Source of the DNA: Chloroflexota bacterium
GTDB lineage: Bacteria; Chloroflexota; Limnocylindria; P2-11E
Assembly (NCBI GenBank): GCA_028876375.1
Contig: JAGWSB010000017.1
Span: forward strand, 1 to 38,314
Direction: 5' to 3'
Length of the DNA: 38,314 nucleotides
Positions 29,744 through 34,060 of the stretch are shown here, piece after piece. A program made the translations under genes and the position numbers. The first letter of the stretch is position 1; each line of letters starts with the position of its first letter. The notes beneath the pieces were generated by a model that worked only from the letters and a program-made list of their open reading frames with translations, had not been told where the DNA came from and made no database searches.

Positions 29744-30193
29744 ATGATGGACTTCGAGCAGCTCGCCTTCATCGAGAAGTGGCGGCAGCGCGCGTCGCGC
29801 GGGATCGTCGTCGCTCTCGACGGGCGCCACGGCGACATCCTGATCACCGTACGCGTGGGCGAGCTCGGCGAGCGGCTCGACCTCCGGGGCCGCGACGCGA
29901 CGGGCGCGATCCGCAAGTCGCGCCTCACCATCGGCGACCGCGTCTTCATCGCCGTGGAGTACGCGGCGAAGGACGCCGTCCGCGGCAGCGGCGCGGGGCG
30001 CGTCAGCGGCGAGGTCGTCCAGCCCGGCGCGACGGTCGACGGGACGATCGCCTCGGTGGGAGAGATCAGCGTCGTGCAGTGCGGCGCGGACGTGCTCGTG
30101 CGCGGGGACACGCTGCCGGGCTTCGCGGCCGGCGACCCGGTGCGCTTCAGCGTCGCCGAGGAGGGCAAGGCCTACATCATCCCGACGCGCTAG
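29744..30193 (+). CDS. Small beta-rich cytoplasmic protein of unknown function
   Basis: 149 residues, ATG ATG start at 29744; the 321-residue track ORF starts too early, antisense to the HAD gene. Sequence features: a helix (MMDFEQLAFIEKWRQRASRG), then alternating strand-like segments (IVVALDGRHGDILITVRVG, RVFIAVEYAA, VVQPGATVDGTIASVG, VRFSVAEEGKAYIIP). There is no signal peptide, membrane helix or catalytic motif that I can name. The later part resembles an OB-like or cold-shock-like small barrel, but this is weak. It is divergent from the HAD gene, and its TAG stop shares the palindrome CTAG with the stop of the convergent peroxiredoxin gene. Confidence 0.7.
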   Translation: MMDFEQLAFIEKWRQRASRGIVVALDGRHGDILITVRVGELGERLDLRGRDATGAIRKSRLTIGDRVFIAVEYAAKDAVRGSGAGRVSGEVVQPGATVDGTIASVGEISVVQCGADVLVRGDTLPGFAAGDPVRFSVAEEGKAYIIPTR

Positions 30194-30693
30194 TCGAGCT
30201 TCTTCAGCTCCTCCTCGATCTCGGCGGGATCGGGTACCTCGCGCAGCGTGTGGACGTCGATGTAGCGGACGACCCCCTGCCGATCGATCACGAAGATCGC
30301 GCGCTCCGGCCGTCCGGCGGCCTCGTCGAAGACGCCGTAGGCGCGCGCGAACGCCCCGTGTGGCCAGAAGTCGGAGCACAGCGGGATGTCGATCCCCTTG
30401 AGATCGTCCGCCCACGCCTTCAGCGCGTACACCGTGTCGCACGAGATGCCCACGACCTGGGCATCCTCCGCGCCGAGCTTCTTCTGCAGCTCGCTCAGCG
30501 CGGGAAGCTCGCTGTTTCAGGTGTTGGTGAACGCGAAGGCGAAGAACGCCAGGACGACCTTCTTCCCGAGGAGCGCTCCGAGCACGATCTCGCGACCATC
30601 GTGGGAGCGCATGGTGAACGCCGGAGCCGGATCCCCGACCTTCAGCGTCGGCGTCTCTCCGGCGAGCTTGGTGCGTCCGACGGGTGCGGCCAT
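30190..30693 (-). CDS. AhpE-like peroxiredoxin, predicted selenoprotein (in-frame UGA at the catalytic site)
   Basis: The track shows two fragments, but they are one frame: ATG at 30693, 58 codons, TGA at 30517-30519, then 108 codons to the TAG at 30190. Across the TGA the text reads FAFAFTNT-U-NSELPAL, which aligns with the peroxiredoxin active site TxxC...E, so residue 59 (normally the peroxidatic Cys) is predicted selenocysteine. Downstream are VVGISCDTVYALKAWADDL, CSDFWPHGAFARAYGVFDE and RAIFVIDRQGVVRY, the AhpE/Prx core with the conserved Arg. The Pro of PxxxTxxC is Ala here. It would reduce hydrogen peroxide, organic peroxides or peroxynitrite in the cytoplasm. Leaderless -10 TACTCT at 7 nt. 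A SECIS-like hairpin follows the UGA. Confidence 0.85.
30474..30511 (-). promoter_or_regulatory. SECIS-like hairpin just after the UGA of the peroxiredoxin
   Basis: In the mRNA, starting at the sixth base after UGA, CGAGCUUC pairs perfectly with GAAGCUCG (8 bp) enclosing 22 nt, in which CGC/GCG can close a five-base apical loop GCUGA containing G and U. The 38-nt size and position match bacterial SECIS elements that recruit SelB. Folding was done by eye. Confidence 0.6.
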
Positions 30694-30711: not shown

Positions 30712-30915
30712 GTGCCGACCGAGGTGAAGCCCGCCCGCATCGAGGCCGACCGCGCGCGCTTCTTCGCCTACCAGGTCGCGTGCCCGTTCGACGGAACGCT
30801 CGTGGGACCCCGCTTCGTCACGCGCGAGCATCTGGACGTTCCGCCGAACCCGCCGTATGCGGCGACGGTGCGCTGCCCGAACGACAAGCAGCTCTTCGAG
30901 GTGATCTTCCGCTAG
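30712..30915 (+). CDS. 67-residue soluble protein with two conserved-looking cysteines
   Basis: GTG start, 67 residues. It contains ARFFAYQVACPFDGTLVGPRF and YAATVRCPNDKQLFEVIFR: two C-P dipeptides 37 residues apart, resembling half of a zinc ribbon or a redox pair. No named family comes to mind. It is divergent from the selenoperoxiredoxin and shares its bidirectional -10 box, so the two may be co-regulated. The six-base spacing from TAGAGT to GTG supports this start. Confidence 0.7.
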   Translation: MPTEVKPARIEADRARFFAYQVACPFDGTLVGPRFVTREHLDVPPNPPYAATVRCPNDKQLFEVIFR

Positions 30916-30923
30916 GTGCCGGA

Positions 30924-30975: not shown

Positions 30976-31035
30976 TTACTTCTTCTTCGAGCTCTTCTTC
31001 GCTGACTTCTTGGCCGCCTTCTTCTTTGCGGGCAT
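30976..31035 (-). CDS. 19-residue lysine-rich peptide (histone-tail-like)
   Basis: ATG at 31035 to TAA at 30976, missed by the track because it is too short. It encodes MPAKKKAAKKSAKKSSKKK: 11 lysines, with only Ala, Ser and one Pro otherwise. Such a composition is like the tails of bacterial H1/HU-type nucleoid proteins and suggests binding to nucleic acid or acidic surfaces. It lies 43 bp after the HTH gene on the same strand. The best ribosome-binding site of the window precedes it, which is the main argument that it is translated. No family assignment is possible; an RNA-level function of the segment is the alternative. Confidence 0.6.
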   Translation of the reverse strand: MPAKKKAAKKSAKKSSKKK

Positions 31036-31039
31036 CCCA

Positions 31040-33001: not shown

Positions 33002-33967
33002 ATGGTCGACGACCGGTGCGTCGTCGCTCGCCTCCATCCGGTCGCGCTCGCCTGGGCGGCCGGCTTCTTCGACGGCGAGGGCAGCACTTTCGTGCACCGC
33101 TCGCGGCCCAGCTACAGGAGGCTCGAGCTCAGCATCGGGCAATCGGGGCCCGACGGCGTACCGGAGGTGCTGCTTCGGTTTCAAGCCGTCGTTCTTGGCA
33201 TGGGAACGATCGATGGACCCGAGGCCGAGCGCATGTACTTCTGGAGAGCGCGCACCTTCGTCGAGGCGCAAGCCACCATCGCCCTGCTGTGGAAGGAGCT
33301 CGGGCCGGTGAAGAGACAGCAGGCGGGTATCGCATTTCGTACTGTCGGCTCGCAGTACGAGCAAGGTCGGTTGCGAGCTCGCCGCCCACGGCTCCGTCAC
33401 CGCCCGCATGAGCTGCACGCGGCTGCGGCTTTGTCTCAGGCCGCGCGGCAGGAGATCGACCGCGCGTGGGCCGCGGGCTTTCTCGATGGTGAAGGCCACT
33501 TCGGGCTGCCACGTTCCCGCTCCCGTGTCGATCTGCCGGCTTGGCGGCGCATCCGCGTCTCGGCGACGCAGAACGGCTCACCCGGACAGCCGGCCGTCGT
33601 CCTCAGCAAGCTCGTGCGGATCCTCGGTGGAAAGATCGAGCGGCACGGCGAGCCGGACGACCATCGCTGGGTCTTGGAGGGGCTCCGCGGGGTCGAGCGG
33701 GTGCTCGCCCTCGTACGTCCATGGCTCGGCACGGTGAAGCAGCTGCAGGCCCGCGGCGCGATCGATGGGTTCGCGGCCCAACAGCGCATTCGTGGCGACG
33801 CGACGAAGTGCGCCCGCGGACATAGCTATAGCCACGTCTACATGAGCAAGAGCGGGCCGAAGCGTCGCTGTAAGGCATGCGCACGGCTCCTGGGGCGGAG
33901 CAGCCGGGCGCGCCAGGGGGTCAAGCCTCGGAAGTTCACGAACGTCGCTCGCAGGTACACTTTCTAG
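33002..33967 (+). CDS. Free-standing two-motif LAGLIDADG homing endonuclease with a C-terminal zinc finger
   Basis: 321 residues. Two LAGLIDADG-type helices are present, LAWAAGFFDGEGS near residue 17 and RAWAAGFLDGEGHF near residue 160, each with the acidic metal-binding residue and followed by the beta-strand-rich half-domain. Such a single chain folds as a pseudo-dimer and cuts a long DNA site. The C-terminal region holds CARGHSYSHVYM and RRCKACARLL, a CxxGH...CxxC finger otherwise common beside HNH endonucleases. No intron or intein host surrounds it, so it is free-standing. SD GGAAGGGA lies 6 nt before the ATG. The stop is 9 bp before tRNA-Pro(GGG), whose -10 lies within the end of this gene. 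Confidence 0.87.
   Translation: MVDDRCVVARLHPVALAWAAGFFDGEGSTFVHRSRPSYRRLELSIGQSGPDGVPEVLLRFQAVVLGMGTIDGPEAERMYFWRARTFVEAQATIALLWKELGPVKRQQAGIAFRTVGSQYEQGRLRARRPRLRHRPHELHAAAALSQAARQEIDRAWAAGFLDGEGHFGLPRSRSRVDLPAWRRIRVSATQNGSPGQPAVVLSKLVRILGGKIERHGEPDDHRWVLEGLRGVERVLALVRPWLGTVKQLQARGAIDGFAAQQRIRGDATKCARGHSYSHVYMSKSGPKRRCKACARLLGRSSRARQGVKPRKFTNVARRYTF
33956..33961 (+). promoter_or_regulatory. -10 box of tRNA-Pro(GGG)
   Basis: TACACT, 15 nt before the tRNA 5' end, inside the last codons of the endonuclease gene; identical to the box before tRNA-Pro(CGG). Confidence 0.45.
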
Positions 33968-33976
33968 TCGTACGCG

Positions 33977-34050
33977 CGGGGTGTAGCTCAGCTTGGCAGA
34001 GTGCGTGAATGGGGTTCACGAGGCCCCGGGTTCGAATCCCGGCACCCCGA
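33977..34050 (+). tRNA. tRNA-Pro (anticodon GGG)
   Basis: Cloverleaf: acceptor CGGGGTG/CACCCCG, D stem GCTC/GAGT, anticodon stem CGTGA/TCACG with loop ATGGGGT (anticodon GGG), T arm CCGGG-TTCGAAT-CCCGG, discriminator A. It reads CCC and CCU. No encoded CCA and no intron. Confidence 0.96.
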
Positions 34051-34060
34051 CAGTAAATAT

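Follow-up and report, generated by a model that had tools for sequence, protein, structure and literature searches.

A predicted selenocysteine-containing AhpE-like peroxiredoxin in a Chloroflexota genome and its relatives

The window, by which we mean the whole stretch of 38,314 nucleotides that was analysed, contains on its minus strand the gene of a predicted selenocysteine-containing AhpE-like peroxiredoxin (prx, 30190..30693), identified from its translation with TGA read as selenocysteine (Sec, U), from Pfam, and from sequence and fold matches in the PDB. The frame comprises 167 codons from the ATG at 30693-30691 to the TAG at 30192-30190, and its sole interruption is the in-frame TGA at codon 59 (30517..30519, minus strand; read as 30519-30517). 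If this UGA were a stop, the truncated product would be encoded by the N-terminal 58 codons preceding it (30520..30693, minus strand). With the TGA translated as U the product has 167 amino acids (MAAPVGRTKL...FAFAFTNT-U59-NSELPALSEL...EELKKLD), and the Pfam AhpC-TSA match spans the TGA (E 4e-34, 117.6 bits compared to a cut-off of 26). The UGA is located within a T/SxxU motif (FTNTU) at the position of the peroxidatic cysteine. In a phmmer search against the PDB, residue 59 aligns with the peroxidatic cysteine of Mycobacterium tuberculosis AhpE (Rv2238c, E 1e-27), which we take to be Cys45, and 57 homologues with cysteine share the column of U59. An earlier note on this DNA had regarded two open reading frames as same-frame halves of one peroxiredoxin, separated only by a single TGA at the catalytic cysteine, and both the continuous frame and the alignment to AhpE bear this out. 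The coordinates of the note are correct; it gives no strand, and translation of the plus strand yields an unrelated frame. Those of its predictions that are accessible to computation all hold.

The surroundings of prx offer several further observations. A gene of 67 codons (30713-30916, plus strand) is divergent from prx and adjoins it in 12/12 loci of the clade of TGA-bearing genes described below. It has a zinc-ribbon-like CPxC...CPxC pattern in most relatives, one cysteine of each pair has been lost in this genus group (CPFDG...CPND), and a comparison with Pfam gave no match for it. At about 30978-31036 (minus strand) a tiny lysine-rich frame, MPAKKKAAKKSAKKSSKKK, with a purine-rich stretch before it was noticed by eye, which is possibly a very small basic protein. 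The open reading frame at 33002-33967 (plus strand) contains two copies of an AWAAGF-DGEG motif and resembles, also by eye, a homing endonuclease of the LAGLIDADG type. It is located just upstream of a tRNA-Pro (33977-34051).

The AlphaFold2 model of the peroxiredoxin, built on an alignment of 35 relatives, has a mean pLDDT of 91.9 and places residue 59 near the start of a helix formed by residues 57-73. The top 12 fold matches of the model in the PDB are all AhpE (TM 0.82-0.87 by query length), and the sequence search of the PDB likewise favours AhpE (E 1e-27 versus 3e-16 for the next peroxiredoxin class). By both sequence and fold the nearest solved protein is M. tuberculosis AhpE (4x0x, 1xvw), a one-Cys peroxiredoxin that is reduced by outside thiols; 4x0x superposes on the model with a TM of 0.86 by query length at 38% identity. 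However, the protein described here has a predicted Sec where AhpE has Cys45, Ala52 instead of the proline of the PxxxT motif, and two extra cysteines. Judged from the alignments, AhpE-type is a statement about the closest relative only, the clade differing at this proline and in the extra cysteine residues. The best NCBIfam match is PrxU of Eubacterium (Peptoclostridium) acidaminophilum (NF040737), which is also a Sec peroxiredoxin, but the score of 70.3 bits is far below the equivalog cut-off of 270, and the protein is AhpE-like and not PrxU-like.

In peroxiredoxins the peroxidatic residue attacks the peroxide, assisted by a threonine and an arginine. The corresponding residues Thr/Ser56 and Arg131 are kept in 12/12 members of the clade, and R131 (30301..30303, minus strand; position from the frame and the homologue alignment) is invariant in all 81 homologues compared. 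The proline of the PxxxTxxU motif, in contrast, has been replaced in the clade (Ala in nine members, His in two, Val in one), while it is present in 9/12 of the other Sec homologues and in 48/57 of the Cys homologues. Because this position varies elsewhere too (nine of the 57 Cys homologues have Val, three of the 12 other Sec homologues are without Pro), the proline was not treated as defining. A 2026 review quotes the longer motif PxxxTxxU and tabulates the family itself as TxxU (PMC13188914). In addition, Cys85 (30439..30441, minus strand; located in the same way as R131) is found in 12/12 clade members and is almost absent outside the clade, and Cys106 is found in 10/12. As far as the alignment tells, the clade thus appears mildly unusual in having the PxxxTxxU proline replaced and an extra invariant Cys85, which could resolve the oxidised Sec. 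A selenenylsulfide might be formed with either Cys85 or Cys106.

The replaced proline and the newly appeared Cys85 and Cys106 would also fit a Sec-encoding gene whose product is not mainly a peroxidase but serves as a redox chaperone, a sensor or a thiol-disulfide oxidoreductase. However, the peroxiredoxin active-site residues at positions 56 and 131 are retained throughout the clade, the modelled fold is that of AhpE, and the UxxC motif of thiol-disulfide oxidoreductases is missing. We consider such a function improbable, although of all the alternatives it is the one that fares best.

The other explanations concern the TGA itself, for which related genomes were compared. The TGA is present at the same codon in 12/12 clade members, and none of the genes contains another internal stop. 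In a sample of 400 genomes of the phylum, the gene was found in each of the nine genomes from its family, including the one described here, and in the single genome of the same order that belongs to another family, each time with exactly one TGA. It is also present in two named GenBank MAGs, Chloroflexi RIFCSPLOWO2_02_FULL_71_16 and M_DeepCast_50m_m2_054 (L048 and L049). These relatives come from separate assemblies and their proteins are 54-80% identical. In a tree that was built with the TGA codon masked, the 12 TGA genes form a clade with 99% SH-aLRT support, and a nearby Chloroflexota clade has a cysteine codon (TGC or TGT) in 14/14 genes. A single base change would suffice to turn a true TGC or TGT of an ordinary Cys peroxiredoxin into the observed codon by a sequencing or assembly error. 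However, such an error can be excluded for practical purposes because the TGA recurs in the assemblies of 11 relatives, and the distribution of TGA and cysteine codons follows the tree.

The TGA is a stop codon in translation table 11 and automatic annotation would split the gene there, which would be compatible with a nonsense-mutated pseudogene or with a truncated product of 58 amino acids. However, there is no other stop or frameshift, and the protein after the TGA is 70-86% identical between relatives with dN/dS values of 0.14-0.58 in the usable pairs. The value for L020 against L049 was left out because a one-codon gap after the UGA makes it meaningless. The part downstream of the TGA, whose conserved character the earlier note had pointed out, is under purifying selection and includes the invariant catalytic Arg131. 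Together with the complete Sec machinery of the genome, this leaves a decayed or truncated gene with hardly any credibility.

The host MAG comprises 2.6 Mb in 134 contigs and is 90% complete, and the membership of the selABCD genes in this genome depends on correct binning. The MAG contains a tRNA-Sec with the anticodon TCA (75.5 bits compared to a gathering score of 47), which is located two bases from the end of a contig. SelA (524 bits) is encoded directly upstream of and on the same strand as SelB, which scores above its cut-off (345 bits) and includes the SelB winged-helix domains, and SelD is present as well (337 bits). The set of selA, selB, selC and selD, implied by the earlier note and looked for in the way it had proposed, is thus found in one genome, and because all four are present the Sec reading cannot be refuted through a lack of SelB or tRNA-Sec. 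The SelD gene is itself interrupted by an in-frame TGA where Sec or Cys classically stands (STCAG-U-GAK; L128, G000 C28:88193-89119, minus strand), and in the gene of a formate dehydrogenase alpha subunit a TGA occupies the classical Sec position (RV-U-HGPTVVSLAATFGRGAMTNHW; L163, G000 C37:22536-25295, plus strand). Since the peroxiredoxin, SelD, and the formate dehydrogenase each have a UGA where Sec is expected, at least three selenoproteins are predicted for this genome. A SelW-like protein was considered as a further candidate and rejected, because it is a Cys version. Beside selD in L128 there is another LAGLIDADG-like open reading frame, recognised by eye. A genome-wide reassignment of UGA of the kind seen in codes 4 and 25, or readthrough by an ordinary suppressor without Sec, has nothing specific in its favour and is extremely unlikely. 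Against it stand the UGAs at the classical Sec sites of SelD and formate dehydrogenase, the presence of tRNA-Sec, SelA, and SelB, and the orthologous gene of a genome from the same family (L026), which genuinely ends at a UGA, so that UGA is not simply reassigned in the family.

The tRNA-Sec and the TGA-bearing prx occur together in 10/10 sampled genomes of the order. The trait is so widespread in the phylum that their co-occurrence is uninformative at this level: tRNA-Sec was found in 46 of the 51 genomes with a TGA-bearing match, counted by hand among the matches listed, versus 326/400 genomes overall. These 326 genomes have a tRNA-Sec above the Rfam cut-off, some of the matches being weak (E around 1e-9), and Sec decoding seems to be very common in Chloroflexota. 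Among the listed members of one family of the same class (f3), none has a tRNA-Sec match in the 400-genome sample. The distribution of Sec and Cys over the tree of the 81 homologues needs at least five changes, which is in line with the known repeated exchange of Sec and Cys. A TGA at the peroxidatic codon was also seen in distant homologues from Dehalococcoidia (L050, L051), a Betaproteobacteria MAG (L056), Acidobacteriota (L079, L097, L098, L105, L107), and Planctomycetes (L090).

A SECIS-like hairpin can be folded just downstream of the UGA (30465..30507, minus strand). Its GCAGA loop begins 29 nt after the UGA and its folding energy is -25.3 kcal/mol (z -1.94; 11/200 dinucleotide shuffles are as stable). 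In the 2026 review, the bacterial SECIS model is given with a loop of 3-9 nt having a G in the first two positions, a distance of 16-37 nt from the UGA, an upper stem of 4-16 bp, and an MFE of at most -7.5 (PMC13188914). The loop starts with G and lies within the distance range, and the energy is within the limit, but the apical stem is weak, consisting of 2 bp above an internal loop compared to the 4-16 bp of the published model, with which the hairpin thus agrees only in part. RNAalifold did not reveal a consensus SECIS fold for 17 Sec genes, and the region after the UGA gave no match to Rfam. Because of the short apical stem and the missing common fold, we term the hairpin SECIS-like and do not regard it as a proven SECIS. 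A comparison of the 51 nt that follow the UGA with synonymous recodings gave a z of -2.14 for this prx gene and means of -1.66 for 20 Sec genes versus -0.08 for 18 Cys homologues. As a set, the Sec genes are thus folded more stably after the UGA than their synonymous recodings, while the Cys homologues are not. In the 12 clade genes the effect peaks just after the UGA and is weak elsewhere in the gene; about five of them individually have a synonymous-shuffle z near zero. The base following the UGA is A in 22/24 Sec homologues.

Taking these comparisons together, the gene very probably encodes a peroxiredoxin into which the bacterial Sec machinery inserts selenocysteine at the UGA, as the peroxidatic residue. 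We infer that SelA and SelD would make Sec on the tRNA-Sec and that SelB would bind the hairpin just after the UGA and deliver the charged tRNA. In the AhpE-like fold, Sec59 would stand where the catalytic helix begins, with the conserved Thr56 and Arg131 around it. The substrate would most likely be H2O2 or organic hydroperoxides, and their reduction would oxidise Sec to the selenenic acid. For the re-reduction two routes may be proposed, either by an outside thiol as for the one-Cys AhpE or through an internal selenenylsulfide via Cys85. A more specific proposal, that the clade has evolved a Sec-specific AhpE variant in which the proline is replaced and oxidised Sec is resolved intramolecularly by the new, invariant Cys85, is tentative and rather doubtful.

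Peroxiredoxins with Sec have been catalogued for a long time. The literature reports 12 Sec-containing T/SxxU peroxiredoxins in a 2006 survey that already assigned three selenoproteins to the Chloroflexi (PMC1794560), 253 Sec-containing peroxiredoxins from the Global Ocean Sampling (PMC2398784), and 91 Sec-containing TxxU peroxiredoxins in 78 organisms in 2016 (PMC5029168), and the 2026 review counts them among the Sec families (PMC13188914). The earlier note had expected an AhpE-type protein to extend a set known from a few bacteria. AhpE is indeed the nearest relative, but the novelty was overstated in view of the 91 proteins in 78 organisms already listed by 2016 (PMC5029168). Our literature search, which was partial in coverage, came across neither a mention of this lineage nor a Sec protein described as AhpE-type. 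With the TxxU Sec-peroxiredoxins (PF00578) the protein shares the AhpC-TSA domain, a predicted peroxidatic Sec in TxxU as its single Sec, and a host with selABCD, and differs from them in Ala (His or Val in its sisters) instead of Pro and in the clade-specific Cys85 and Cys106. Because this is an established selenoprotein family, the protein adds a member and not a new kind.

Our knowledge of selenoproteins therefore remains unchanged in kind. The analysis corrects the annotation of a gene that would otherwise be recorded in two pieces or as a pseudogene, both here and in at least 11 related MAGs. All sampled members of one Chloroflexota order retain a predicted Sec instead of Cys, whereas a neighbouring clade of the same phylum retains Cys. 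If the reading of Cys85 as resolving residue were true, the clade would have a selenenylsulfide-based catalytic cycle of two residues on the scaffold of a one-Cys peroxiredoxin. The two clades provide a natural set of Sec and Cys homologues with which to study what a peroxiredoxin gains from Sec.
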